Positions 16,220 through 32,622 of a stretch of DNA of 32,669 bases are shown here, one piece after another. This stretch comes from Nitrosomonadales bacterium (lineage in GTDB: Bacteria > Pseudomonadota > Gammaproteobacteria > Burkholderiales > Methylophilaceae). The stretch spans positions 1 to 32,669 of the forward strand of contig JAOMCC010000009.1 in the NCBI GenBank assembly GCA_028344855.1, written 5' to 3'. The position numbers were made by a program, and so were the translations under genes. How positions within the stretch are numbered: the stretch's first letter is position 1; the number at the start of each line of letters is the position of its first letter. A model generated the notes under the pieces. The model did not search any database, was not told the DNA's origin, and was given only the letters and a program-made list of their open reading frames with translations.

Positions 16220-16249
16220 TAATATTTAATAAATAGTATAGGTATGCTT

Positions 16250-17191
16250 ATGAAAAACAAATATTTTTTATTTATTTTCTTTTTTTTAGCTTTTTCACTT
16301 AATGCTGAAGAATTAGATAAATATTGTACTACAAGCTTAGCTGGTGGAAATTTTCATAAAACAGATTGCTCTGTTAATACTACTTTTGATGGAAAAAAGT
16401 ATTGTTTTGGTGATAATGATTCGAAATCAGTTTTTTTAAAAAATCCAAAAATAACATTATCTAAAGCAACATCTTTTTATAATAAAAATAATAGTGATAC
16501 TCGAAAAAAAATCTCTCAAAAGATGGCTGATGAATTATTAGAGGATCCAGATTGTGATTTATCTAATATAGATCTTGGATATCTAGATTTTAAGGGTAAA
16601 GATTTAACTCATTGTGTAATGATAAATGCTAGTTTTTTTGGTTCAGATTTAAGAGGGGCCAATTTATCAGGAGGAAATTTACAAAGAGCATATTTAAATT
16701 TAGCTCGCCTTGAAAATGCAGATTTTACTGGGGCCAACTTAGCTGCAGCTACAATATTCCAACCAATTTTTGGCAAGACAATTTTTAAAAGCGCTAATTT
16801 AAGCAATGCTCGTTTAATTGGCACCCTTGGAAATGTTGATATGTCAGGTGCTATTATTAAACAAGGTAGGCTAGGTTTAGATGTGGGTAATCAGCCTATG
16901 GGCCAAATGAAATTTGATTCTTCTGGTGGTAATTTTGCAAAAGCTGATTTTGAGGGTGCTGATCTTAATATTGCAAGTTTTATTTTTGGAGATTTACGAG
17001 AAGCTAATTTAAGAAATACCAATATGAACCGAGCAGAGTTAGTCAATGCTGATCTCAGAGGTGCTGATTTAACCGATGCTGATTTAACCGATGCTGATGT
17101 TGATGGTGCTGATTTTGAAGGTGTGATTGGCTTATCTACAATTAAAGGATTTTCAACCGTTAAAGGTAAATGTCATAATTGTGGCATGTAA
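16250..17191 (+). CDS. Exported pentapeptide-repeat protein
   Basis: The protein (313 residues from this start) begins with MKNKYFLFIFFFLAFSLNA, a signal peptide with probable cleavage after LNA, so it is periplasmic or secreted. The N-terminal third is cysteine-bearing (YCTTS, KTDCS, KYCFG). From about residue 100 it is a right-handed pentapeptide-repeat helix (A(D/N)LxG type: GSDLRGANLSGGNLQRAYL, ADLRGADLTDADLTDADV). It ends in GKCHNCGM. A start two codons earlier (16244) is possible, but AGG sits seven bases before 16250 and only one base before 16244. Exported pentapeptide proteins have no general known function; gyrase-mimic roles apply to cytoplasmic members. Confidence 0.8.
   Translation: MKNKYFLFIFFFLAFSLNAEELDKYCTTSLAGGNFHKTDCSVNTTFDGKKYCFGDNDSKSVFLKNPKITLSKATSFYNKNNSDTRKKISQKMADELLEDPDCDLSNIDLGYLDFKGKDLTHCVMINASFFGSDLRGANLSGGNLQRAYLNLARLENADFTGANLAAATIFQPIFGKTIFKSANLSNARLIGTLGNVDMSGAIIKQGRLGLDVGNQPMGQMKFDSSGGNFAKADFEGADLNIASFIFGDLREANLRNTNMNRAELVNADLRGADLTDADLTDADVDGADFEGVIGLSTIKGFSTVKGKCHNCGM
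17063..17098 (+). repeat. Tandem 15-base repeat within the pentapeptide gene
   Basis: The unit GCTGATTTAACCGAT occurs twice in exact tandem (17063-17077 and 17078-17092) followed by GCTGAT. It is in codon phase and encodes one pentapeptide unit (ADLTD) per copy, indicating a recent duplication of one helical turn edge. Confidence 0.9.
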
Positions 17192-17521: not shown

Positions 17522-17728
17522 GCCGTTCCTCCAAAATTGAAATTTAATATTTTATTAGTACGCTACCTAAATAGTGCTGTTAATTCCCTATTTACTAGGT
17601 TGTCATTAACTTTGCCTTTTTTTATTTTTGTTGTCAACAATAAATTTGACTTTATTTCCTATACATTTTATTCAGACTGTAGTAGCTGACTTTAATAATT
17701 TTACTTGATTAATGTTACAATATTCAAA
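17522..17728. promoter_or_regulatory. Divergent HU/umuD intergenic region with a weak SOS-like half site
   Basis: CTGT at 17677-17680 followed after eight bases by ACTT (17689-17692) resembles the proteobacterial LexA box CTGT-N8-ACAG only in its left half. A perfect odd palindrome TTGTTG-T-CAACAA spans 17628-17640 and provides a TTGACA hexamer on the minus strand that could be a -35 element for HU. Neither element is decisive without comparison to other SOS promoters of this genome. Confidence 0.3.
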
Positions 17729-18310
17729 ATGATTAAAAATAAAAAACAACACGGTGGGTTAAGAATAGGTGCAGGACGAAAATTACATAGTGGTCTTTAT
17801 GGAGAGTCTACGAAGGTAATAAGAGTTCCTACAAGTAAAGTATCTGATATTCAAAAATATATTATTCAATTTCAAGTGAACAATGTTATTGATGTTAGTA
17901 AGAGCAATTTCTTATTGACTCACCAACCTTTAGATCTATTTGAGTATAAAGTTCCAGCTGGTTTTCCATCGCCAGCTGAAGATTATAAAGAAAAAAAATT
18001 AGATTTAAATGAATATTTGATTAAGCAAAAGGAAGCAACATTTTTTGTTAGGATTAAAGGTGATTCAATGATTGATGCAGGTATCCATGATAATGACATT
18101 GTGATTGTAGATAAATCTCAGACAGCCTCTACGGGAGATATTATTCTAGCTTCTATTGATGGCGATTTTACTGTTAAATTATTATCTAGAAATAAATCTA
18201 AATATCAATTATTACCAGCTAATGAGAAATATAAACCAATTGAAATTAACGAGTCAATGCAATTTGAGGTATGGGGAGTTGTAACTGGGGCGGTTAGGAA
18301 ATTTAAATAA
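17729..18310 (+). CDS. umuD: UmuD-like S24 peptidase, DNA polymerase V subunit
   Basis: This protein (193 residues from this ATG) is a LexA/UmuD-type self-cleaving serine protease. The predicted cleavage site is A77-G78 in VPAGFPSPAEDY, where E. coli UmuD has Cys-Gly before FPSPAADY. The catalytic pair is S113 (IKGDSMIDAG) and K150 (DGDFTVKLLS). It has about 75 residues before the cleavage site against 24 in E. coli, beginning with HGGLRIGAGRK, a basic glycine-rich motif found in DNA-associated proteins. A TTG at 17705 in the same frame is a possible longer start, but ATG is preferred. umuC follows after four bases. Confidence 0.9.
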   Translation: MIKNKKQHGGLRIGAGRKLHSGLYGESTKVIRVPTSKVSDIQKYIIQFQVNNVIDVSKSNFLLTHQPLDLFEYKVPAGFPSPAEDYKEKKLDLNEYLIKQKEATFFVRIKGDSMIDAGIHDNDIVIVDKSQTASTGDIILASIDGDFTVKLLSRNKSKYQLLPANEKYKPIEINESMQFEVWGVVTGAVRKFK

Positions 18311-18314
18311 GGCA

Positions 18315-19571
18315 ATGATTGCACTAGTGGATGTAAATAACTTTTATGTAAGTTGTGAGAGATTATTTAATCTAAAATTATTAAATAAACCAATCATAGT
18401 TTTAAGTAACAATGATGGATGTGTTATTTCAAGAAGTAATGAAGCTAAATTATTAGGTATTAAAATGGGGGCACCATTATTTAAAGTAAGAAATATAATT
18501 AAGCTATCCAATATTATTGTTTTATCATCAAACTATTCACTATATGAAGATATAAGTAGCCGCACAATGAAATTATTATCGTCTTTTTCAAATCAACAAG
18601 AAATTTATTCGATTGATGAATGCTTTTTGGGTTTATCGGGTGATCAAAATATTTATGCGACAGGGCAAAAAATAAAAAAGCAATTATGGAAATACTTAGA
18701 TATGCCAGTATGTGTGGGTATAGCTTCAACAAAAACACTAGCAAAATTAGCAAATTATTGTGCGAAAAAACAGCCTCAATGGTCTGGAGTCTGTGATTTA
18801 TCTAAATTATCTGATATTAGAATTAATAATATTATGTCTAAAATTAACGTTGGTGAAGTATGGGGAATCGGTATTAAAACAGCAAATAAACTTAAAGCTA
18901 TAGGAATAGATTCAGTATTAGATTTAAAAAAATCTAATGCAATATATATAAAAAAGAAATTTAGTATAAGTATAGAAAAGATTATTTATGAGCTTAATAA
19001 TATTATTTGCTTCCCTATTAATTTAAATAAACAGTTAAAAAAACAGATTATTGCTTCAAGAAGTTTTGGTTGTCCAATTCAAAATTATGAATTATTAGTT
19101 GAGGCTGTTACAACATTCACTTCTAGAGCTGCTTTAAAATCAAGACAGCAAAATACACTTGCAGAATATGTTACTGTATTTATTGGTAGTAGTCCTTTTC
19201 AAAAAAAATCGAATTACTATCGGAACAACATTACATTAAAACTTTCTTATCCAACAAATGATACAAATTTAATTTTATCTATAGCATTGAAAGCATTAAA
19301 ATTAATTTATAAATCTAATATTAATTACATTAAATGTGGAATTATTTTGTCAGGCTTAATAGATAAAAGTAGAACTCAAGATTATTTGTGGCCAATTAAA
19401 ATTATTGAGCAATCTCGATTAACTCAAACTATCGATAATATTAATATTAAATTTGAAAAAAATAGTCTTCGATTTGCAACACAACCAATTGATCCAATTT
19501 GGAGAATGAAACAATCAAGAAAGAGTCAGTCGTTTACGACATCATGGGAAGAGCTTTTAATAGTTAATTAG
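18315..19571 (+). CDS. umuC: Y-family DNA polymerase V catalytic subunit UmuC
   Basis: This 418-residue translesion polymerase has D6 in IALVDVNNFYVSCERLF and the catalytic pair D101-E102 in YSIDECFLGL. It also has SNNDGCVISRSNEAK (31-45), the thumb segment CVGIASTKTLAKLANYCAKK, and the little-finger text ASRSFGCPIQN. The C-terminal IDPIWRMKQSRKSQSFTT resembles the UmuC tail. Length is close to E. coli UmuC (422). It follows umuD after four bases and the two form the pol V operon. Its last eight bases overlap the convergent rodZ 3' end, and no terminator hairpin is visible between them. Confidence 0.95.
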   Translation: MIALVDVNNFYVSCERLFNLKLLNKPIIVLSNNDGCVISRSNEAKLLGIKMGAPLFKVRNIIKLSNIIVLSSNYSLYEDISSRTMKLLSSFSNQQEIYSIDECFLGLSGDQNIYATGQKIKKQLWKYLDMPVCVGIASTKTLAKLANYCAKKQPQWSGVCDLSKLSDIRINNIMSKINVGEVWGIGIKTANKLKAIGIDSVLDLKKSNAIYIKKKFSISIEKIIYELNNIICFPINLNKQLKKQIIASRSFGCPIQNYELLVEAVTTFTSRAALKSRQQNTLAEYVTVFIGSSPFQKKSNYYRNNITLKLSYPTNDTNLILSIALKALKLIYKSNINYIKCGIILSGLIDKSRTQDYLWPIKIIEQSRLTQTIDNINIKFEKNSLRFATQPIDPIWRMKQSRKSQSFTTSWEELLIVN

Positions 19572-21826: not shown

Positions 21827-23422
21827 ATGGTTAGAATGAAACAACTTCCTTCCCAGAAAACTCAAGAACTAATGATTTTGCATCAGCAGGGTAATATTAA
21901 AGCAGCTGGTGAAATGGCAATACAGTTACTTAAAGATTATCCTAAAGAATTGTTACTTCATAATATTTTAGGTGTTTATGAAGAAAATCAAGGGAATTTG
22001 AAAGCAGCAGCAAATTCATATCAAAATGCACTTAACATTAATCAAAATATACCTGAATTACAATTTAATTTAGGTGCTATTTTACATGCATTAAATAATA
22101 ACGAAGGCGCGATAGATCATTACCAAAAAGCAATTAAACTAAATCCAAGTTTTACAGAAGCCTTTTTTAATTTAGGAATTACGTACCAAAGATTATCTCA
22201 GTATGAATTAGCTATTGAGTCATATGAAAAAGCAGTTAACATTCAACCTGGATTTTATGAAGCAATTGCAAACATTGGTACAATTCAACAAATTCAGGGA
22301 AATTTAGAAGAAGCAATTACTTTTTTTAAGAAGTCTTTAGCAATTTTTGAAGATGGAAGAGGGCATTATAATATTGCAGGAGCTTACAGGAATTTAGGTA
22401 ATTTATCTCTATCTATAAAACATTATAAAAAAGCAATTGAAATTGGTCCGGCTGAAGCTGAATTTTACTCTGATTTGGGAGATTCTTTATGGCATGATGG
22501 CAATATTCAAGAGGCTAATCGTTTTTTGAGAATGGCTGTTGAAGTTGATTCCTCCAATGCAAAGTCAAATTATCAATTAGGCATTTTCTTATATGACAAT
22601 AAAGCTTTTATAGAGGCGATAAAATATTTTGAGTCCGCTCAAATTGGAGATTCGGAGGAGAGAATTTTATATTGTTTGTACAAGCTTAAGGAATTTGATC
22701 AATTTAAAGAGAAATTAGAAGGTTTAATTACAAAAAAAAATTGCTCTCCTTTTTTGGCTACACTCTCAGCTCATTATGCTCAGAACTTTAAAATAGAAGA
22801 TTTTTATAATTTTTGTCCCTCACCACTAGATTTCGTTTGTCATGAACAAATTCCAGAATTAGTAAAAAATAATCAGCAACTTATAAAAGATTTGATAAAT
22901 GACATTGATAATGCTGATATTGGACAAAGAAAACAATCAAGATTAACAGCTGGTATTCAATCTTCTGGTAATTTATTTAAGAGAGATGAAGTCTCTTTTA
23001 ATAAGTTAGCAGAGGCTTTAAAGAAAATAATCAAGAAATATTTTTTAAAATATAAAAATGAAGATAACGAATTTATTAAGTCATTTCCAAAAAATATTCT
23101 TTTTAGCAGTGCATGGTATGTAAGGATGCAATCAGGGGGACATTTAACTTCCCATATCCATGAGGAAGGTTGGGTTAGTGGCGCAGTTTATTTAGTGGTT
23201 CCAAAAGATTCTGGACCAGACAAACAAGAAGGCGCTATTGAGTTAAGTAGTGATGGAGATGAATATCCTCGATTACATAATGAGTTTGAAAAAAAAGTAA
23301 TTTTACCAAATGTAGGAGATGTTATTTTTTTCCCTTCTTCTGTGTTTCACAGAACAATCCCTTTTATTTCAAAAGAAGAAAGAATTTGTATTGCATTTGA
23401 TGTAAAACCTAAATTTAGGTAA
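21827..23422 (+). CDS. TPR array fused to putative 2OG-Fe(II) oxygenase, paralogue 1
   Basis: This 531-residue protein has about seven TPR units (roughly 15-275; for example ELQFNLGAILHALNNNEGAI and EAFFNLGITYQRLSQYELAI), a linker with NFCPSPLDFVCHE (328-340), and a C-terminal oxygenase-like domain (about 385-528). The latter shows HIHEEGWVSGAVYL with H443 and H445, H508 in FFPSSVFHRTIPF and R519 in EERICIAFDV, the order of 2OG-FeII_Oxy_5-like domains. The usual HxD/E is HxH here. No signal peptide is present, so it is cytoplasmic. It has about two more TPR units than its two neighbours, which follow on the same strand after 11 bases. An alternative start is the ATG at 21836. Substrate unknown. 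Confidence 0.75.
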   Translation: MVRMKQLPSQKTQELMILHQQGNIKAAGEMAIQLLKDYPKELLLHNILGVYEENQGNLKAAANSYQNALNINQNIPELQFNLGAILHALNNNEGAIDHYQKAIKLNPSFTEAFFNLGITYQRLSQYELAIESYEKAVNIQPGFYEAIANIGTIQQIQGNLEEAITFFKKSLAIFEDGRGHYNIAGAYRNLGNLSLSIKHYKKAIEIGPAEAEFYSDLGDSLWHDGNIQEANRFLRMAVEVDSSNAKSNYQLGIFLYDNKAFIEAIKYFESAQIGDSEERILYCLYKLKEFDQFKEKLEGLITKKNCSPFLATLSAHYAQNFKIEDFYNFCPSPLDFVCHEQIPELVKNNQQLIKDLINDIDNADIGQRKQSRLTAGIQSSGNLFKRDEVSFNKLAEALKKIIKKYFLKYKNEDNEFIKSFPKNILFSSAWYVRMQSGGHLTSHIHEEGWVSGAVYLVVPKDSGPDKQEGAIELSSDGDEYPRLHNEFEKKVILPNVGDVIFFPSSVFHRTIPFISKEERICIAFDVKPKFR

Positions 23423-23433
23423 TAATAGACTTT

Positions 23434-24933
23434 ATGACTGGCCAAAAAGAAATCAAAATAAGTGATATAGACAATCTTATCTCTAAAGGGCAATTCAAAG
23501 AAGCCTTAACTATTCTTAATAACTTATCTCAAAGCAAACCAAATAATCCAGATCTTTTTCTAATGGGTGGAAATTGTTATGGAGCAATGCAATCTTATGA
23601 ACAAGCTATTTTATGTTATCAAGAAGCAATTAAACTTAAACCTGATTTTTCGGAGGCGCACAATAATATTTCGGTTTATCTTAAAGAAATAGGTGAACTT
23701 GAAAAGGCACTTTTACACGCTAAAAAGGCAGTTAAATTTAAACCTAATTTTGCTCCGGCGCATAATAATCTTGGTGTTTGTTTGTATGAATTAGGAAGAC
23801 CAAAAGAAGCAGAAATATCTTATAAAAGAGCAATTGCACTTAAATCTAATTATGCAGATGCACATAATAATATAGGTAATATTTATAAAGATTCTGGCCA
23901 GGTTGATGAGGCCATTTTAAGTTATAAAAAAGCAATTAAAATTAATCCTAATTGTTCTGGGGCATATGATAGTCTTGGCGCAACTTACAGTGAGCTAGGA
24001 AAAAATGAGGAGGCTACCGCATTTTATGGAAAGGCGAGAGGTTCTAATAAAGATTTCGAGCAAGGTTTATCTTTATTTGAAAATGGGAATTTTACTGAAG
24101 CCACTAAATTTTTTGAAAAATCTCAACATGCAGATTGGAAATCAAAAACCCTAGAAAGTCATTACAGAGCTGAAGAATATGATTTATTTAAAGAAAAATT
24201 AATTAATTTTACAAAGAATGAACCACATATTTTCAGAACTATAGCAGCATTATCTGCGCATTATGCTCAAAATTTAAAAACAGATGACCCGTATAATTTT
24301 TGTCCAAATCCATTAAATTTTGTTTGTCATGAAAAAATATCAGAATTGACAGAAAACAATAATCAACTTACTAATGAACTTATAAAAGATATAAAGACTG
24401 CTGGTGTTTTAAAAAGAGAATATCAATATTTGTCTCATGGAACTGCTTTGGAACAGTCAGGCGGTCATTTATTTAAAAGATCAGAAAAATCTTTTAAAAA
24501 ATTATCTACGGCAATTATAAAAACAATTAAAAGATATTATTTACGCTATCAAAATGAAAAAAATGAATTTATTCTTTCATTCCCAAAAAAAATTACTTTC
24601 AGTAGTGCATGGTCTATCGAAATGAAAACAGGTGGTCATTTAAGTGCCCACAATCACCAAGAGGGTTGGATAAGTGGAGCCCTTTATTTGGCAGTTCCTA
24701 AAGAAAATGGTGAAGATGGTCAAGAAGGTGCAATTGAGTTAACTTCAGATTTTCACCAATATCCAAAGCTTCATAATGAATTTGATAAAAAATTAATTTT
24801 ACCTGAAGTAGGCGATGTTGTTTTCTTTCCATCTCCTCTTTATCATCGAACAGTTCCGTTTAAATCAAACGAAGAACGTATTTGTATAGCATTTGATGTT
24901 AAGCATGATGTCAAAAATTTTGGTACTTATTAA
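23434..24933 (+). CDS. TPR array fused to putative 2OG-Fe(II) oxygenase, paralogue 2
   Basis: This 499-residue protein has about five TPR units (10-205; FSEAHNNISVYLKEIGELEK, FAPAHNNLGVCLYELGRPKE, YADAHNNIGNIYKDSGQVDE), the shared motif NFCPNPLNFVCHE (288-300) and a C-terminal domain with H406 and H408 (AHNHQEGWISGALYL), H471 (SPLYHRTVPF) and R482 (ERICIAFDV). The residue after the second histidine is Gln here but Glu in the other paralogues, so that position is not a strict metal ligand. It is closer to paralogue 3 than to paralogue 1 (shared REYQYL/RKYQYL and HLF(K/R)RSEKSFKKLS). It begins 11 bases after paralogue 1 and no signal peptide is seen. Confidence 0.75.
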   Translation: MTGQKEIKISDIDNLISKGQFKEALTILNNLSQSKPNNPDLFLMGGNCYGAMQSYEQAILCYQEAIKLKPDFSEAHNNISVYLKEIGELEKALLHAKKAVKFKPNFAPAHNNLGVCLYELGRPKEAEISYKRAIALKSNYADAHNNIGNIYKDSGQVDEAILSYKKAIKINPNCSGAYDSLGATYSELGKNEEATAFYGKARGSNKDFEQGLSLFENGNFTEATKFFEKSQHADWKSKTLESHYRAEEYDLFKEKLINFTKNEPHIFRTIAALSAHYAQNLKTDDPYNFCPNPLNFVCHEKISELTENNNQLTNELIKDIKTAGVLKREYQYLSHGTALEQSGGHLFKRSEKSFKKLSTAIIKTIKRYYLRYQNEKNEFILSFPKKITFSSAWSIEMKTGGHLSAHNHQEGWISGALYLAVPKENGEDGQEGAIELTSDFHQYPKLHNEFDKKLILPEVGDVVFFPSPLYHRTVPFKSNEERICIAFDVKHDVKNFGTY

Positions 24934-24964
24934 GTTTTTTTAAAAGTTTTTAGGCAAAGTATTT

Positions 24965-26455
24965 ATGGTTAATTATATTCAAGCAGCACAATCGGAGTTA
25001 AATAATTTTAATAATCTTTTTTCGAAAAAAGATCATAAAGAAGCTCTAGCTGAACTTGATTTACTAACTCAAAAATATCCAAATGATCCTAATCTTTTCT
25101 TACTTGGTGGGAATTGTTATGTTGAAATGGGGCATTTTAACCAAGCTATTTTATGCTACGAAGAAGCAATAAAATTAAAACCAGATCTTGTTGATGCTCA
25201 TAATAATATGGGTATATGTTTAAAAGAGACTGGTGAAATTGACAAGGCTGTAGTAAGTTTTCAAAAGGCGCTAAAACTTAAACCAGATTATGCAGTGGTG
25301 CACAATAATCTTGGGATATGTTTATATGACTTATCTCAATCAAAAGAGGCTCAATTATGCTTTAAGCGAGCTATTAAGTTAAAACGAGATTATGCTGAAC
25401 CTCATAGCAATCTTGGAAATATTCTAAAAGATTTGGGTAATGTAGATGAAGCTATTTTAAGTTATCAAAAAGCAATTAAATTAAACCCAGACTTTATTGA
25501 TGCTTACAATAATCTCGGGTCAATTTTCAACGAACTTGGACGAAACGAAGAAGCGATTAAATGCTGGGGTATTGCAAGAGGTGGTAACAAGGGCTATGAA
25601 AAAGGACTTGAAATGCTTGAAAAGAAAAATTTTTCAGAAGCAATCAAAAATTTTGAAACCTCCAACTTTGGAGATTGGCAAGAAAAAGTTTTAGAATGTC
25701 ACTACAGAGCAAAAGAATTCGAAAAGTTTAAAGAAAAATTACCAAAAACTTTTAATGGTCGAAGACATAATATTAGACGTTTAGCTTCTATTTCAGCAAA
25801 TTATGCGCAAAATTTTAAAATAAAAGATCCTTATAATTTTTGTCCCTCCCCGTTAGATTTTGTGTGTCATGAAGAAATACCAGAGCTTTTGGAAAATAAA
25901 GGAGAACTAATAAAAGAATTAATTCATGACATTAATACTGCCGGCATTTTAAAAAGAAAATATCAATATTTATTTAATGACTCACCTGTAGAACAATCTG
26001 CTGGACATTTATTTAGAAGATCAGAAAAATCATTTAAAAAATTATCAGATGCTTTAATTAAAGCAATCGAAAAATATTTTCTGCGTTACAAAGATGTAGA
26101 AAATGAATTTATTCTTTCTTTTCCAAAAAAAATTAATTTTATAAGTGCTTGGTATATTAAAATGCAATCGAGCGGACATTTAACAGCGCATATTCATGAG
26201 GATGGATGGATTAGTGGTGCTGTTTATTTAAAAATCCCTAAAAATTCTAGCTCAGAAGATTATGAGGGGGCTATTGAATTAAGTGCAGATGGAGATAATT
26301 TACCCCGATTACATGATGAATTTAAAAGAATAACTATAATTCCTAAAGCTGGGGAGGTTATTTTTTTCCCTTCTTCAGTTTTCCATCGAACAATTCCTTT
26401 TAATTCTGAAGATGAACGGATTTGCATAGCATTTGATGTTAAGCCTAGTTTTTGA
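24965..26455 (+). CDS. TPR array fused to putative 2OG-Fe(II) oxygenase, paralogue 3
   Basis: This 496-residue protein has about five TPR units (10-205; LVDAHNNMGICLKETGEIDK, YAVVHNNLGICLYDLSQSKE, FIDAYNNLGSIFNELGRNEE), the shared NFCPSPLDFVCHE (291-303), and a C-terminal oxygenase-like domain with H409 and H411 (AHIHEDGWISGAVYL), H474 (SSVFHRTIPF) and R485 (ERICIAFDV). It starts 31 bases after paralogue 2, so the three genes are probably one transcript that arose by tandem duplication. It is convergent with the BrkB-fusion gene, 16 bases away, without a visible terminator. Related TPR-oxygenases may hydroxylate proteins or glycans, but no substrate is known for this group to me. Confidence 0.75.
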   Translation: MVNYIQAAQSELNNFNNLFSKKDHKEALAELDLLTQKYPNDPNLFLLGGNCYVEMGHFNQAILCYEEAIKLKPDLVDAHNNMGICLKETGEIDKAVVSFQKALKLKPDYAVVHNNLGICLYDLSQSKEAQLCFKRAIKLKRDYAEPHSNLGNILKDLGNVDEAILSYQKAIKLNPDFIDAYNNLGSIFNELGRNEEAIKCWGIARGGNKGYEKGLEMLEKKNFSEAIKNFETSNFGDWQEKVLECHYRAKEFEKFKEKLPKTFNGRRHNIRRLASISANYAQNFKIKDPYNFCPSPLDFVCHEEIPELLENKGELIKELIHDINTAGILKRKYQYLFNDSPVEQSAGHLFRRSEKSFKKLSDALIKAIEKYFLRYKDVENEFILSFPKKINFISAWYIKMQSSGHLTAHIHEDGWISGAVYLKIPKNSSSEDYEGAIELSADGDNLPRLHDEFKRITIIPKAGEVIFFPSSVFHRTIPFNSEDERICIAFDVKPSF

Positions 26456-26471: not shown

Positions 26472-27695
26472 TTAATTGATTTGAAGTTTTCTGGCCATAT
26501 TAGATAAAAAATACATAGCAACTTTATTATCTTCAGCTAAAATCTTTTTCATTTGCACTTCAGAAATAATTATTATTCTTGCCCAATCTGATACTACTTC
26601 TGCTGAAGTATCTCTTGGAATCTTATTTAATAAAGATAATTCTCCAAAGTAATTTCCTGAACTAACAATTTCTATTTCCTTTGTTTTGTTAGTAATACCT
26701 ATTTCACCTTCAATAACAAAAAAAAGTCTATGGTCATTATCACCTTCTTTATAAATCACCATATTTTTTTTATATTTTTGTCCAAATAATTTCATTAATT
26801 CATTTAAGATCTGATGACGATGAATATTCTTGATGATAAAAAGTTGTTTAAGTAATAAAATTTCTTTTTTGTGTAATGCTGAAATAAGTTCAGCACTGAT
26901 TAAAAGTGATGCTATATTAAGATATAACCAAATTAAAGAAATAAATAGACCTCTCATGCCTCCAAAGAAAGTGCCATAGAAAGCACTTATATTAATGAAA
27001 AAATCAAATAAATAACTTAAAGAGTACCAAGAAATACTCGTTAATATTGCCCCTAAGAGTAAATATCTTTTTTTTATCTTTATTGGAAAATAAAAATTGA
27101 AAAAAATCATTAGGATTGAAGTTAATAAAAGTAATGACATAATTGAAGAGAAATAAATTTTTCTCAAAATTGGAATGTATTCAGCAAATATATAAGATGC
27201 TTCTAATAAAAATAAATCTAAAAAAATATACATAAAAAATAAAAGCATAATGGGGATGACAGCAAATATATCTCTGATTTTATTTTTAAAAAAAGTATTT
27301 TTATTAGGTAGACCTAAAATATTGGCGAAACTATTTCTGAGTGAGGCAGTAAGTGGAGTAGCTGCTAAAAAGAGAACCATTATCCATAAAACACCCCAGC
27401 TGGCTTTTGTGGCAGATACTTTATAGACTTCACTCATAATTCTTTCGTTTATTTCAGGGAGTAAATGAGAAGTAAGAATTGCTAAATGGGATAAGGCAAA
27501 TGATGAGTTTGCAAGCCATTGACTTAAAAAAAAGAAAATAAGTAAAACTAGGGGAATTAGGGCGAATAAAGTAAAAAAAGAAATAGATGCATTGTGAGCT
27601 AAAAAATTATGCCTACGACAACCAGATAAAACTTCCTTTGTTATAAAATATCCAATACCTCTGGAGTTTGAAATTTTTTTTGCGATATGTAACAT
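26472..27695 (-). CDS. YihY/BrkB-family membrane protein fused to a cyclic-nucleotide-binding-like domain
   Basis: This 407-residue protein has an N-terminal YihY/BrkB domain (about 15-275) with six hydrophobic segments and family text HNASISFFTLFALIPLVLL, SWGVLWIMVLFLAATPL and FFGGMRGLFISLIWLYLNI. A cytoplasmic CRP/CNMP-like beta-barrel follows (about 300-405): MVIYKEGDNDHRLFFVIEGE, then YFGELSLLNKIPRDTSAEV with G351-E352-L353 and R361 in the phosphate-binding-cassette position. Most YihY proteins end shortly after the membrane domain. The tail may sense a nucleotide or only serve structure; no DNA-binding helix is present. Proline iminopeptidase lies 15 bases upstream on the same strand. 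What YihY proteins do is unsettled. Confidence 0.85.
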   Translation of the reverse strand: MLHIAKKISNSRGIGYFITKEVLSGCRRHNFLAHNASISFFTLFALIPLVLLIFFFLSQWLANSSFALSHLAILTSHLLPEINERIMSEVYKVSATKASWGVLWIMVLFLAATPLTASLRNSFANILGLPNKNTFFKNKIRDIFAVIPIMLLFFMYIFLDLFLLEASYIFAEYIPILRKIYFSSIMSLLLLTSILMIFFNFYFPIKIKKRYLLLGAILTSISWYSLSYLFDFFINISAFYGTFFGGMRGLFISLIWLYLNIASLLISAELISALHKKEILLLKQLFIIKNIHRHQILNELMKLFGQKYKKNMVIYKEGDNDHRLFFVIEGEIGITNKTKEIEIVSSGNYFGELSLLNKIPRDTSAEVVSDWARIIIISEVQMKKILAEDNKVAMYFLSNMARKLQIN

Positions 27696-28977: not shown

Positions 28978-30855
28978 ATGCAATTAAATAAAATCAAACT
29001 AGCTCTCGGTTTTGTAACTGCTGCTGCTATGGCTATGCCAATGGTTGCTTCAGCTGCAGCTGACCAAGAAAGAGCTATGAAAGATCCTTCAAATTGGGCT
29101 CACCCACGTGGTCAGCACGACAACCAAGGATATTCTAAGTTAACTCAAGTTAACAAAGGTAATGTTAAAAATCTTAAAGCAGCATGGACACTTTCTACTG
29201 GTGTAAACCGTGGTCATGAAGGTTCTCCTCTTGTTATTGGTAATATGCTATATGTACATACAGCATTCCCAAATAACGTTTATGCTTTAGATCTTAACAA
29301 CAACCAAAAAGTTGTATGGTCTTACTTCCCTAAACAAGATCCAAGCGTTCAAGCAGTATTATGTTGCGATAACGTTAACCGTGGTCTTGGTTATGGTGAT
29401 GGTAAAATCTTACTTCAACAAAACGATGGTATGTTAGTAGCGCTTGACGCTAAAACTGGTGCTAAAGTTTGGGATGCTAAAAATACAGATCCTAAAGTTG
29501 GTGCTACAAATACTAACGCTCCACACGTAATTAAAGATAAGATTATTACAGGTTGTTCAGGTGCTGAATTTGGTGTTCGTTGCTTTATTGCTGCGTATAA
29601 CCTTAAAGACGGTAGCCTAGCTTGGAAAGCTTATTCTACAGGTTCAGATGCTGAAGCATTAATCGGCGCTGACTTTAACAAAGAAAACCCACTTTATTCA
29701 GCTCTATCAGTTTACGAAGATGTAAACGGTGGTAACAAACAAGGTGGATCTTTCAAAAAAATTCCAACTTCACAACTTAAGGGTGGTGTAGCAGACCTAG
29801 GTATTAAAACATGGTTGAAACCTCAAGCTGTTAAAGATGGTTGGCAACATGGTGGTGGCTCTACTTGGGGCTGGTGGCCATATGATGCAAAAACTAACCT
29901 TATCTTTTACGGTACAGGTAACCCATCAGTTTGGAACCCAGACGTACGTCCAGGTGACAACAAATGGTCTATGACAGTTTTTGCTCGTGACCTAGATACA
30001 GGTATGGCACGTTGGGGCATGCAAATGACTCCACATGACGAGTGGGATTATGACGGTATTAACGAAGTTATCCTATTTGACAAAGGTGGTAAAACATATG
30101 CATGGCACCATGATAGAAATGGTTTTGCATACACATGGGTTGCAAACACTGGTACATTAGTGGCTGCTGAAAAAGTTCACCCATTTGTTAACTGGGCTTC
30201 AGACGTTGATCTGAAATCTGGTGTGCCTAACAAACTTGCTGAGCACTCTACTCACCAAGACTACAACACTAAAGGTACATGTCCAGCTGCTCTTGGTACT
30301 AAAGACCAACAGCCTGCTGCATATTCACCTAAAACTGGTTTAGTTTACTCACCAATGAATCACGTGTGTATGACATATGAGCCAGTTGAGTCTAAATATG
30401 TTGCTGGTCAACCTTGGGTTGGTGCTACTTTAACTATGTTTGCTGGTCCTGATGGCGTAATGGGCGGTTTTGCTGCTTATGATCCAATGACTAACAAAAA
30501 AGTTTGGTACAACAAAGAGAAATTCTCTGCTTGGGGTGGTGCTTTAACAACTGCTTCAGACTTAGTTTTTTACGGTACTTTAGATCGTTGGTTCAAAGCT
30601 CTTGACGCGAAAAGCGGTAAAGAACTTTGGAAATTCCAAGTTGGTTCAGGTGTGATTGGTAATGCATTCACATATGCACACAAAGGTAAACAACACGTTG
30701 GTGTCCTATCAGGCATCGGTGGTTGGGCTGGCGTTGCAATGAACCTTGGTCTTACAAATGACACAGACGCACTTGGTGCTGCTGGTGGTTATAAAGAACT
30801 AACAAAATACAACGCTGCTCCTGGTGGCGGTGCATTAACAGTATTTAGCCTATAA
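28978..30855 (+). CDS. xoxF: Lanthanide-dependent PQQ methanol dehydrogenase XoxF
   Basis: This 625-residue periplasmic quinoprotein oxidises methanol and passes electrons to cytochrome c. A signal peptide ends near ASA (about 25-28). The vicinal disulfide C129-C130 (VLCCDN) is present. Candidate metal and active-site residues are E197 (SGAEFGV), N315 (YGTGNPS), catalytic D357 and the lanthanide-marker D359 in HDEWDYDG; calcium-type MxaF has Ala at the last position. W-motif text such as YDAKTNLIFYGTGNPSVWN and LDAKSGKELWKFQVGSG marks the eight-bladed propeller. GGAG lies seven bases upstream. The gene is visibly richer in C- and G-ending codons than its neighbours, fitting very high expression. 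XoxF4 assignment, usual in Methylophilaceae, is inference. Confidence 0.97.
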   Translation: MQLNKIKLALGFVTAAAMAMPMVASAAADQERAMKDPSNWAHPRGQHDNQGYSKLTQVNKGNVKNLKAAWTLSTGVNRGHEGSPLVIGNMLYVHTAFPNNVYALDLNNNQKVVWSYFPKQDPSVQAVLCCDNVNRGLGYGDGKILLQQNDGMLVALDAKTGAKVWDAKNTDPKVGATNTNAPHVIKDKIITGCSGAEFGVRCFIAAYNLKDGSLAWKAYSTGSDAEALIGADFNKENPLYSALSVYEDVNGGNKQGGSFKKIPTSQLKGGVADLGIKTWLKPQAVKDGWQHGGGSTWGWWPYDAKTNLIFYGTGNPSVWNPDVRPGDNKWSMTVFARDLDTGMARWGMQMTPHDEWDYDGINEVILFDKGGKTYAWHHDRNGFAYTWVANTGTLVAAEKVHPFVNWASDVDLKSGVPNKLAEHSTHQDYNTKGTCPAALGTKDQQPAAYSPKTGLVYSPMNHVCMTYEPVESKYVAGQPWVGATLTMFAGPDGVMGGFAAYDPMTNKKVWYNKEKFSAWGGALTTASDLVFYGTLDRWFKALDAKSGKELWKFQVGSGVIGNAFTYAHKGKQHVGVLSGIGGWAGVAMNLGLTNDTDALGAAGGYKELTKYNAAPGGGALTVFSL

Positions 30856-30898
30856 TCCCTAACGGATTTATAGAACTAATTACAGTTTAGTTAGTCTT

Positions 30899-30933
30899 AA
30901 AAACACCCTACTTCGGTAGGGTGTTTTTTTTTA
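30899..30933 (+). terminator. Strong intrinsic terminator after xoxF
   Basis: AAAAACACCCTAC and GTAGGGTGTTTTT form a 13-base stem closed by a TTCG tetraloop (C-TTCG-G), then a run of T. It separates xoxF from xoxJ and would let xoxF transcript greatly exceed xoxJG. Confidence 0.93.
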
Positions 30934-30996
30934 CCTTAATTGAATTAAATAATTGATATTAGGGATTATCATTAGATAAAGATTAAGAGTTAAATG

Positions 30997-31002
30997 TATA
31001 AT
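30997..31002 (+). promoter_or_regulatory. Candidate -10 element of xoxJ promoter
   Basis: A perfect TATAAT directly preceded by TG lies 26 bases before the xoxJ ATG and downstream of the xoxF terminator. No good -35 hexamer sits at 16-18 bases. GAGG at 31018-31021 is the xoxJ ribosome site. It implies that xoxJ can be transcribed on its own. Confidence 0.45.
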
Positions 31003-31028
31003 GGGGCAAAATAAATCGAGGAAAGATT

Positions 31029-31910
31029 ATGTTTAAAAATATATTAAAAGTTCTGATATTAATAGCAATTGGTGCAATTAGTTTTGTATCTTATGCAGGG
31101 GGTCCAGATCGATGGTCTAGTGATGGTCGTCCAGGACAAACTGCAAGGGTCCCAAAAGATCATGAATTTAAAGTGTGTGCAGATCCAAATAACTTACCTT
31201 TTTCAAATGAAAAACAAGAAGGATTCGAGAATAAAATAGCTGCAGTTTTAGCTGAGGATCTAAATAAAGAGTTAAGTTTTCAGTTTTGGCCTGATCGATT
31301 TGGTTTTATTAGAAATACTTTGAAATCTAAAAGATGTGATGTACTAATTGGTACTGGCTCAGCTGTTGATATGGTTAAAACATCAAAACCATATTATCGC
31401 TCAGGACATGTTTGGATTTACAGAAAAGATAGTGGCTATAATATTAAGGATTGGGATTCGCCAGATTTAAGAAAAGGTATTATAGGTATTGTGGATAAAA
31501 GCCCTGTTGCACAATCTCTTAATGCAAATGATTTGATGGCAAATGCTAAACCATATAGATTAATGCGAGATTTAACTAAAGATCCAGGACAACTTGTAAC
31601 TCATCTAGCAGAGAAAAAAATTGATATAGCAATTATGTGGGGGCCAATAGGTGGTTATTTCGCTAAAAAATCCTCAGTACCGATGGAGGTAGTTTTAATT
31701 CCTGAGTTTGAAGATGTTAAACTTTCTGGTAAAACTTATTGGAATATTTCAGCAGCAGTGCGACACGGTGATAAAGATCGTTTAAAGATGATTGAGGGTG
31801 CGTTAGATAGAAAAAAAGATGAAATTTTGAAGATTTTAGATGACTTCGGAATTCCTCATACAGAACCAGTATTTAGAAATAAATTAGATGGAAGACAATA
31901 CAAAAAATAA
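31029..31910 (+). CDS. xoxJ: XoxJ, periplasmic solute-binding-like methanol oxidation protein
   Basis: This 293-residue protein has a signal peptide (KNILKVLILIAIGAISFVSYA, cleavage near YAG) and a family 3 solute-binding fold. FKVCADPNNLPFSNEKQEGF and FWPDRFGFIRNTLKSKRCDVLIG are the conserved MxaJ/XoxJ/PedF-associated text. XoxJ is thought to help activate or stabilise XoxF rather than import a solute. GAGG sits seven bases upstream of the ATG. It lies between xoxF and xoxG in the usual xox order, but separated from xoxF by a strong terminator. Confidence 0.9.
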   Translation: MFKNILKVLILIAIGAISFVSYAGGPDRWSSDGRPGQTARVPKDHEFKVCADPNNLPFSNEKQEGFENKIAAVLAEDLNKELSFQFWPDRFGFIRNTLKSKRCDVLIGTGSAVDMVKTSKPYYRSGHVWIYRKDSGYNIKDWDSPDLRKGIIGIVDKSPVAQSLNANDLMANAKPYRLMRDLTKDPGQLVTHLAEKKIDIAIMWGPIGGYFAKKSSVPMEVVLIPEFEDVKLSGKTYWNISAAVRHGDKDRLKMIEGALDRKKDEILKILDDFGIPHTEPVFRNKLDGRQYKK

Positions 31911-31945
31911 GTCAAATAATTAGTAAAAATAGATGACATAAATTT

Positions 31946-31976
31946 AAAAAATGAGTAAAATAAGACTCAGTTTTTA
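31946..31976 (+). terminator. Hairpin between xoxJ and xoxG, possible weak terminator
   Basis: AAAAA-A-TGAGT and ACTCA-G-TTTTT pair with one internal A/G mismatch around an eight-base loop and end in T's. It could terminate xoxJ or attenuate read-through into xoxG, which starts about 100 bases later with its own AGGAG site. Confidence 0.5.
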
Positions 31977-32076
31977 TTGTATACCAGCAATTTATTTAAT
32001 CCCTTTTTAAGGAAACTTTTAGTAAATTTATTGTCCAAACACGTATATGGATATTAAATATAGATTAGGAGAAGAT

Positions 32077-32622
32077 ATGTTTAAAATGAAACAATTATTA
32101 TTAATCTTATTCACTGGAATTTTAAGTTTCAGTTTTGGTGCTCATGCAGAGATTAAATTAACGAAAACAACTGATGGGTCAGAATTTAAAATAACAGATC
32201 CAAAAGCATTTGGTGATACTAAGAAAAAAGATAATGTTAAAACAAAAGCTGAGATAGAGTTTCTAAAGACAGGTAAGAATATTTACGTTGGAGATGCTAA
32301 AGCTGAAAAACGTGGCAAAAAAAGATTTGGTTATTGGTCATGTACCCAATGTCATGGTCCAACAGCGAAAGGTCAAGTTGGCCCTGGATTAGTTGGCCCT
32401 ACTTTTAAATACCCAAAAGACATTACTAACCAAGGTATGATAGAAACTATCTGGTTTGGAACTAATGGTGGTATGGGTGGAAAAGGATACGGCGTTATGG
32501 CTGCTGACGATGGTATGACTTTAGACGAGTTATTAAAAACCATTGCTTGGGTTCGTACACAAGGTAGTCAGGGAGTTACTGGTAATGAAGAAGAAAATAT
32601 GAAAAAATTCTTAAAAAATTAA
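32077..32622 (+). CDS. xoxG: XoxG, cytochrome c electron acceptor of XoxF
   Basis: This 181-residue periplasmic c-type cytochrome accepts electrons from XoxF. Its signal peptide is MFKMKQLLLILFTGILSFSF followed by GAHA. The haem motif is C89-x-x-C92-H93 (SCTQCHGP), and a methionine in GTNGGMGGKGYGVMAADDGM (for example M133 or M141) is the likely sixth ligand. GPGLVGPTF and IWFGTNGGMGG are typical of c_L/XoxG proteins. A frame ten codons longer (from 32047) exists, but AGGAG lies five bases before 32077 and the shorter form gives a normal signal peptide. About 100 bases of leader separate it from the hairpin after xoxJ. Confidence 0.92.
   Translation: MFKMKQLLLILFTGILSFSFGAHAEIKLTKTTDGSEFKITDPKAFGDTKKKDNVKTKAEIEFLKTGKNIYVGDAKAEKRGKKRFGYWSCTQCHGPTAKGQVGPGLVGPTFKYPKDITNQGMIETIWFGTNGGMGGKGYGVMAADDGMTLDELLKTIAWVRTQGSQGVTGNEEENMKKFLKN

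Follow-up and report, generated by a model that had tools for sequence, protein, structure and literature searches.

Three adjacent, same-strand genes in a contig of a Nitrosomonadales bacterium assigned to the Methylophilaceae (assembly GCA_028344855.1, contig JAOMCC010000009.1, positions 1 to 32,669; hereafter, the window) encode long proteins combining a tetratricopeptide repeat (TPR) array with a putative C-terminal 2-oxoglutarate (2OG) oxygenase domain. Their presence raises the question of why a streamlined genome would maintain three such paralogs side by side, and of whether they act on the same target. The analyses presented here favor, with a probability of roughly 0.6, a reading in which these proteins are cytoplasmic 2OG oxygenases, probably hydroxylating proteins, that have been retargeted by exchange of their TPR arrays.

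The open reading frames (ORFs) called on the forward strand agree with the tandem order outlined by an initial inspection of the DNA without database searches (the sequence-only reading), with 11 bases separating copies 1 and 2 and 31 bases separating copies 2 and 3. The architecture proposed in that reading was also recovered in all three copies, which contain TPRs (TPR_1, 124-143 bits against a Pfam cut-off of 27.8), an NFCPxPLxFVCHE segment and a single PF13759 (2OG-FeII_Oxy_5) domain scoring far above the gathering cut-off of 27 (92.0, 88.6 and 92.7 bits). No PF13759 genes were found beyond the triplet in the 815-kb assembly, which is 61% complete. Three copies also occupy this locus in a second genome (G028), which makes an assembly artefact an improbable source of the triplet. 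Scanning for promoters and terminators yielded no more sites than shuffled sequences. No N-terminal hydrophobic stretch was seen by eye, suggesting a cytoplasmic location.

Origin of the triplet and of its TPR arrays

The N- and C-terminal parts of the three proteins point to different histories. In a full-length tree, copy 1 clusters with copy 1 of G028 and with the orthologs of G003 and G017 (100/100), and copies 2 and 3 of both genomes form a long separate branch. In a tree of the last 240 residues, copies 2 and 3 of both genomes fall inside the clade defined by copy 1, G028 copy 1, G003 and G017 (100/98). The pairing of the second and third copies of G028 with those of the window differs between the two trees. 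The acquisition of copies 2 and 3 as a whole from elsewhere, hinted at by the full-length tree, is not favored, because the tree of the catalytic half nests them in this sublineage. The data hence place the duplication of the oxygenase unit in a single small sublineage. Copy 1 was initially described as possessing more repeats and as the more divergent member; it does contain one more TPR, but trees and pairwise identities identify it as the conserved ortholog and copies 2 and 3 as the derived genes.

Pairwise identities, split near residue 311 and computed with the G043 and G027 rows left out, reveal the same discordance. In the C-terminal part, identity to copy 1 is 63% for copy 2 and 66% for copy 3, versus 54% and 59% to the single-copy ortholog of G007, and the TPR part of copy 1 shares 32% and 30% identity with those of copies 2 and 3, versus 50% with that of G007. 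Furthermore, over the first 100 amino acids (aa), copies 2 and 3 are closer to a TPR protein encoded on contig 36 of the same genome (E 1e-22 and 3e-24) than to copy 1 (E 3e-11 and 1e-7). All Pfam matches listed for the contig-36 protein at E up to 1e-4 belong to TPR or similar helical-repeat families. The best outside match to the TPR part of copy 3 in 11 chosen genomes comes from G017, a TPR-methyltransferase that aligns at 39% over 189 aa (E 1e-41); next are TPR proteins from G025 and G017, of which one also shows a 2OG-oxygenase match below cut-off. TPR-methyltransferase, TPR-sulfotransferase and TPR-GT41 fusion enzymes from the same or related genomes are related to the triplet in their TPR parts, but have different catalytic domains. 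These results suggest that the TPR arms of copies 2 and 3 were probably replaced, rather than having merely diverged, and replacement would account for the discordance between the TPR and catalytic halves.

Several observations weigh against replacement and lend themselves to a different explanation, in which the genes were duplicated for dosage, the TPR arrays of copies 2 and 3 diverged fast through repeat turnover and all three proteins share one client. Internal repeat turnover makes TPR arrays change quickly, and strong divergence could mimic replacement. TPR parts outpace C-terminal parts also among single-copy orthologs, as seen for copy 1 and G007 (50% against 67%), and the TPR part of the G007 ortholog still matches copy 3 at least as well as several unrelated TPR proteins do (E 2.6e-28, 38% over 147 aa). 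Identity to copy 1 also climbs gradually between residues 240 and 330, without a sharp border, and is high after approximately residue 300; the rise from about residue 240 implies that the shared unit includes the last repeats, the linker and the oxygenase, with an imprecise border. Even so, the drop to 30-32% in the TPR parts at 63-66% C-terminal identity exceeds that of the copy 1-G007 pair, and copies 2 and 3 are closer to a different TPR protein than to copy 1 over their first 100 residues, cap included. In addition, constraining copies 1-3, the three G028 copies, G003 and G017 to a single eight-sequence clade over residues 1-240 costs 38 log units and is rejected by the approximately unbiased (AU) test with a p-value of 5.6e-5, which is generous in that the clade was named after the trees had been seen; the test also involves long branches. 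Duplication for dosage is hence regarded as rather unlikely, and TPR exchange is retained as the preferred explanation.

The sequence-only reading took the retention of three long paralogs as a sign of a valuable function, a view that relaxed selection would have undermined. Selection is purifying throughout and somewhat weaker in copies 2 and 3, with NG86 dN/dS values between the window and G028 of 0.12 for copy 1, 0.23 for copy 2 and 0.20 for copy 3 (whose pairing is uncertain), all of them at dS near saturation. Values between paralogs were 0.39 (copies 1-2) and 0.22 (copies 2-3), and single-copy pairs, including copy 1 versus G003 and G017, ranged from 0.055 to 0.09; NG86 returned no dS for the G012-G014 pair. 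YN00 provided values for 3 of the 11 pairs, including 0.115 for the copy 2 pair.

Separately, TPR proteins of OM43-like relatives (L260:697-2166, L270:706-2166 and L272) present a C-terminus that by eye resembles another type of 2OG oxygenase. L260 has a PF13640 match below cut-off and L270 has no such Pfam match; two genes of this kind adjoin in G025.

Predicted fold and active site

The fold predicted for copy 1 (with 36 other rows) has a predicted local distance difference test (pLDDT) score of 92.8 and consists of nine TPR-like helix pairs, a further helix and a beta-rich domain. Structure searches (VIA-align) with the full-length model were filled by TPR proteins, and the last 240 residues were therefore folded alone (pLDDT 92.9). 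The nearest solved structures to this domain are 3bvc (Z 16.7) and 2rg4 (Z 15.9), superposed over 181-185 residues with a root-mean-square deviation of 3.3-3.5, followed by the Pseudomonas putida prolyl hydroxylase 4j25 (Z 15.4), its EF-Tu complex 4iw3 (Z 14.9) and PHD2 and OGFOD1 (Z 14.9-15.2); rows within one Z unit, such as 2rg4 and those following it, are to be read as tied. The double-stranded beta-helix that the sequence-only reading had called for is hence predicted with high confidence, and copy 1 is predicted to adopt a fold like that of 2rg4 and 3bvc. These two PF13759/TIGR02466 proteins share an H-x-H motif with copy 1, but they are short chains (216 and 212 residues) described as uncharacterized, in contrast with the long triplet proteins, and copy 1 scores below the TIGR02466 cut-off (48.4 versus 62.5).

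The prolyl hydroxylases (P. putida P4H, PHD2 and OGFOD1/Tpa1) resemble the triplet proteins in the fold of the catalytic domain at 9-20% identity; they use an H-x-D...H motif and lack a TPR array of this kind. AspH presents the same layout as the triplet, with N-terminal TPRs and a C-terminal oxygenase, and is listed by Foldseek with a loose alignment (490-498 columns, TM 0.35-0.39 by query, 13-14% identity). It was not among the best 50 rows listed in the structure search with the domain model, and PF05118, which we take to be the AspH oxygenase family, was not among the best 25 families listed for each copy (of 29, 26 and 29 at E 0.1). AspH holds its iron with two His, versus seemingly three in the triplet family. 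Because the nearest characterized structures are prolyl hydroxylases and AspH shares the TPR-plus-oxygenase layout, hydroxylation of a protein or peptide side chain is put forward as the likely reaction.

The substrate could alternatively be a small molecule, a surface glycan or a glycoprotein, with the TPR part docking in a biosynthetic complex. Consistent with this alternative, the closest outside TPR matches to copy 3 include proteins in which the repeats are joined to a methyltransferase (G017) or a sulfotransferase (G027), a TPR match in G025 carries the weak 2OG-oxygenase match mentioned above, HygX bound to hygromycin B is among the structure matches of the domain model, and a Wzy_C/O-antigen-ligase-type protein and a type IV pilin lie beside the ortholog in part of the Methylophaga loci. 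However, neither the Methylophilaceae loci nor the remaining Methylophaga loci showed such neighbors, and the nearest characterized folds are mostly protein hydroxylases, making a non-protein or glycosylated substrate improbable, although still worth consideration next to the preferred protein client.

The canonical facial triad of the 2OG-oxygenase superfamily is H-x-D/E...H. Instead, all 46 aligned sequences (one of them a fragment) present H-x-H...H, as do nearly all other PF13759 rows examined, with H443, H445, H508 and R519 of copy 1 invariant throughout and H443/H445 aligned with the same H-x-H of 2rg4 and 3bvc. The H-H-H-R combination was found in all 82 rows of the 80 nearest genome loci (which overlap partly with the 46-sequence alignment), in 8/8 distant bacterial rows and in 80 of the 89 distinct, complete viral rows, after setting aside 8 partial and 20 identical ones. 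The nine remaining viral rows comprise five with Lys in place of Arg and four out of register, in which H-x-H lies one column off on the printed rows. The simplest reading of the motif is iron binding by three His, and the conserved basic residue for 2OG after the last His is presumably R519, on predicted strand 519-526. Two alternative ligand pairs were discarded: E446 of H443-x-x-E446 is not kept in the distant rows, and position 447 of H445-x-D/E447 is Asp or Glu in only 33 of the 46 sequences. A JmjC subgroup with HxHxH is described in PMC2453528.

A third His in the place of Asp/Glu is unusual in this superfamily, so activity is not to be assumed, and the geometry of the His triad is derived from sequence order and predicted secondary structure. 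The extreme form of this objection, in which the domain is catalytically dead or a non-2OG scaffold that serves as a binding module, since normal 2OG turnover would require the carboxylate missing from essentially all family rows examined, is distinctly improbable, as the invariance of all four residues in 46/46 sequences and their near invariance in viral relatives speak for a working metal and 2OG site.

The NFCPxPLxFVCHE segment was initially interpreted as a Cys-rich linker with invariant cysteines that might be a functional element of its own. The segment is not Cys-rich; it contains two Cys, and C330 alone is invariant across the family (46/46 aligned sequences and 82/82 genome-locus rows); C338 is Cys in 16/46 and 23/82. 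A metal-binding Cys cluster was rejected on these grounds. Because the linker is predicted as a short helix (333-336) and a strand (338-341), it seems to belong to the oxygenase module rather than to form a separate element. In the eight distant bacterial PF13759 rows the match stops short of the C330 linker. A viral contig (L162:3392-5320) encodes a 642-aa relative, 33% identical, with an FC linker motif and H-x-H...H; it is the only printed viral row whose match covers the linker.

Distribution, genomic context and possible association with methylotrophy

The last 240 residues of copy 2 were used to query 101 genomes, returning matches in 64: the genome of origin, 29/30 others of the genus, 27/30 from the rest of the family and 7/40 from the order. 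The gene is thus present in 56 of 60 family relatives, nearly always as a single copy, and a PF13759 profile search also found none in the four family genomes without a match. The order-level matches include two strong ones (G061, E 2.5e-57; G089, E 3.7e-64) and five weak ones (E 1e-13 to 2e-4). Apart from the genome of origin, more than one full copy was identified only in G028 (three) and G038 (two), and G009 and G029 presented two partial matches each. The triplet therefore recurs in one of the 60 family relatives, which answers the concern that it might be absent from all of them. The two adjacent copies of G038 (L072:8698-12032) do not pair as nearest relatives in the trees and perhaps stem from an old duplication. 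A PF13759 search in 14 chosen genomes recovered one gene in each of eight genus genomes (at least 94% completeness), and three and one in the genomes of loci L148 and L157.

Close orthologs are rare outside the family. Among 368 other genomes of the class, strong orthologs (E <1e-90) were found in four and weaker matches (E <=1e-20) in six, and a sample of 378 genomes across the phylum, searched at E 1e-40, gave only two positives, the genome of origin and another family member. A pattern-based scan of named genomes identified 290 relatives, the best 80 of which are titled mostly Methylophilaceae or Methylophaga, but also Methyloversatilis, marine alphaproteobacterial and some others. A phage origin was considered and rejected: a one-protein scan for viral relatives found none, and a profile scan of viral DNA returned at least 118, of which 80 were kept (21-35% identity); six phage records match the triplet protein at 29-32%.

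The groups involved suggested a link to methylotrophy, for which the one-carbon (C1) enzyme Fae (PF08714) was used as a marker. Fae is encoded in 48 of 369 class genomes. The four class genomes with orthologs all carry it, and the six with weaker matches all lack it; the association has a Fisher p of 2.6e-4, rising to about 2e-3 when the four are treated as three families, which allows only roughly for kinship. Both strong order-level positives are Fae-positive too, so that all six genomes with close orthologs drawn outside the family carry the marker; in a set of 18 chosen genomes that includes those six, 16 were positive. The two Fae-negative genomes are those of L148 (800 kb; its close relative L143 is positive) and of L157, whose copy falls among the Methylophilaceae in the C-terminal tree and which may be misassigned. 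A PQQ (pyrroloquinoline quinone) dehydrogenase model (TIGR03075) was less clean as a marker: among the four class ortholog genomes, two scored above cut-off, one below it (441.6 versus 480.05) and one, 64% complete, showed a trace.

These data suggest that the gene may be linked to methylotrophy, but argue against tight coupling. The oxygenase gene is missing from 44 of the 48 Fae-positive class genomes, and a PF08714 search reveals no Fae in the genome of origin, so that Fae is at most a marker of lifestyle and not of a shared pathway. The lack of Fae in this genome fits the absence of the tetrahydromethanopterin (H4MPT) pathway from OM43 strains, the pelagic forms of which have only XoxF4-1 (PMC6794327).

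In the window, the triplet (Table 1) is followed by genes encoding a YihY-like protein, a prolyl aminopeptidase, a PQQ-dependent methanol/ethanol-family dehydrogenase, a MoxJ-like protein and a cytochrome cL-like protein (below cut-off), the last three spanning 28978-32622. The convergent orientation of the YihY-like gene places the triplet outside the operon of the downstream genes. An ortholog adjoining YihY, with pip and xoxF homologs in the stretch, was observed in 27 of 40 loci: 20/20 in a first batch (19 genus loci and G043), all with YihY adjacent and 17 with an antiporter-like gene in the stretch, and 7/20 in a second batch (19 other family members and G061). The arrangement is hence missing from 13 of the 20 second-batch loci, and the conserved xoxF neighborhood may reflect simple inheritance of gene order. 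No conserved operon partner that would name a client was found in these 40 loci or in the Methylophaga and marine loci, a result that counts against the preferred reading.

Table 1. Coordinates of the triplet, its parts and its conserved neighbors in the window.
Feature	Position	Strand	Basis
Copy 1, TPR-2OG oxygenase, 531 aa, family-wide ortholog	21827..23422	+	ORF call, profile matches, trees
TPR solenoid of copy 1, with nine helix pairs predicted across residues 9-300	21851..22726	+	predicted secondary structure, TPR matches
Copy 1 linker YNFCPSPLDFVCHE, residues 327-340	22805..22846	+	alignments, predicted secondary structure
Copy 1 PF13759 match	23111..23401	+	profile search
Copy 1 H443-x-H445, presumed first two Fe ligands (His at canonical Asp/Glu position)	23153..23161	+	alignments
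Copy 1 H508, presumed third Fe ligand	23348..23350	+	alignments
Copy 1 R519, presumed 2OG-binding Arg, last predicted strand	23381..23383	+	alignments, predicted secondary structure
Copy 2, TPR-2OG oxygenase, 499 aa	23434..24933	+	ORF call, profile matches
Copy 2 TPR part thought replaced, residues 1-204, border approximate	23434..24045	+	identity profile, trees, TPR matches
Copy 2 PF13759 match	24607..24897	+	profile search
Copy 3, TPR-2OG oxygenase, 496 aa	24965..26455	+	ORF call, profile matches
Copy 3 TPR part thought replaced, residues 1-207, border approximate	24965..25585	+	identity profile, trees, TPR matches
Copy 3 PF13759 match	26147..26437	+	profile search
YihY-like membrane protein, conserved neighbor, below TIGR00765 cut-off	26472..27695	-	profile search, locus comparison
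PQQ methanol/ethanol-family dehydrogenase, conserved neighbor, presumed xoxF	28978..30855	+	TIGR03075 (607.9 vs 480.05 bits), locus comparison

Other neighborhoods were observed outside the family. In several Methylophaga loci (L114, L117, L123, L125, L139 and some others) the ortholog is followed by the Wzy_C/O-antigen-ligase-type membrane protein and the type IV pilin, a pair assigned by cluster and annotated on L117; other Methylophaga loci have other neighbors. Four marine loci titled alphaproteobacterial or Pelagibacteraceae (L132:5821-7324, L143, L148 and L156) contain Polyketide_cyc2-domain and beta-propeller genes after the ortholog, on the same strand. Neither set of neighbors is treated as functional evidence. 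Elsewhere in the window, a umuDC-like pair (17705-19571) comprises a UmuD-type protein above its subfamily cut-off and a UmuC-like protein below cut-off, and the matches listed for a pentapeptide-repeat-like protein (16244-17191) are all below cut-offs.

Proposed function and significance

Under the preferred reading, the proteins would work much as AspH does: the N-terminal TPR superhelix would capture a client and present it to the C-terminal double-stranded beta-helix, where iron would most likely be held by H443, H445 and H508, and 2OG anchored by R519. Copy 1 would be a housekeeping enzyme of methylotrophic Methylophilaceae. Its tandem duplication in one OM43-like sublineage would have generated new copies whose TPR array was exchanged for another one, probably drawn from the TPR proteins present in these genomes, resulting in three enzymes that share a chemistry and presumably serve different clients. 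The use of iron and 2OG, hydroxylation, a protein client and client selection by the TPRs are all proposed here on the basis of sequence and predicted structure. The partner selection by TPR arrays envisaged in the sequence-only reading gains indirect support, because copies 2 and 3 keep the catalytic part of copy 1 and differ in the TPR part; a changed array on a constant catalytic unit is what would be expected if the array decided the client. The unlike TPR halves hence suggest a single catalytic chemistry aimed at different targets.

The TPR-plus-oxygenase architecture and the PF13759 family are already known. As far as the literature was searched, three points are new: a tandem triplet whose TPR parts differ, the clustering of close orthologs in the Methylophilaceae and a few groups mostly carrying the C1 marker, and the family-wide H-x-H...H motif. 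In that literature, no treatment of this motif in PF13759 and no assigned function for the family were found; no title addressing the triplet protein was found either, although other papers may mention it inside their main text, and a term search of the main text of PMC10872708 and PMC8262872 gave no matches.

PF13759 spans bacteria, phages and, according to PMC10598087, algal viruses of the Phycodnaviridae. If the iron site is indeed composed of three His, a whole branch of the 2OG-oxygenase fold would operate without the usual carboxylate ligand. The gene is retained in 56 of the 60 family relatives, among them streamlined marine OM43 bacteria, and the close orthologs examined elsewhere mostly belong to genomes with the C1 marker, which makes an unnoticed modification step tied to methylotrophy possible. 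The tandem copies also offer a natural experiment for asking if the client is set by the TPR array. The most specific version of this account, a methylotroph-restricted, xoxF-linked, three-His TPR oxygenase in which whole TPR adaptors were exchanged between tandem copies and the chemistry redirected to new clients, is tentative and on balance doubtful; if true, it would represent the natural retargeting of a protein-modifying oxygenase within a streamlined genome.

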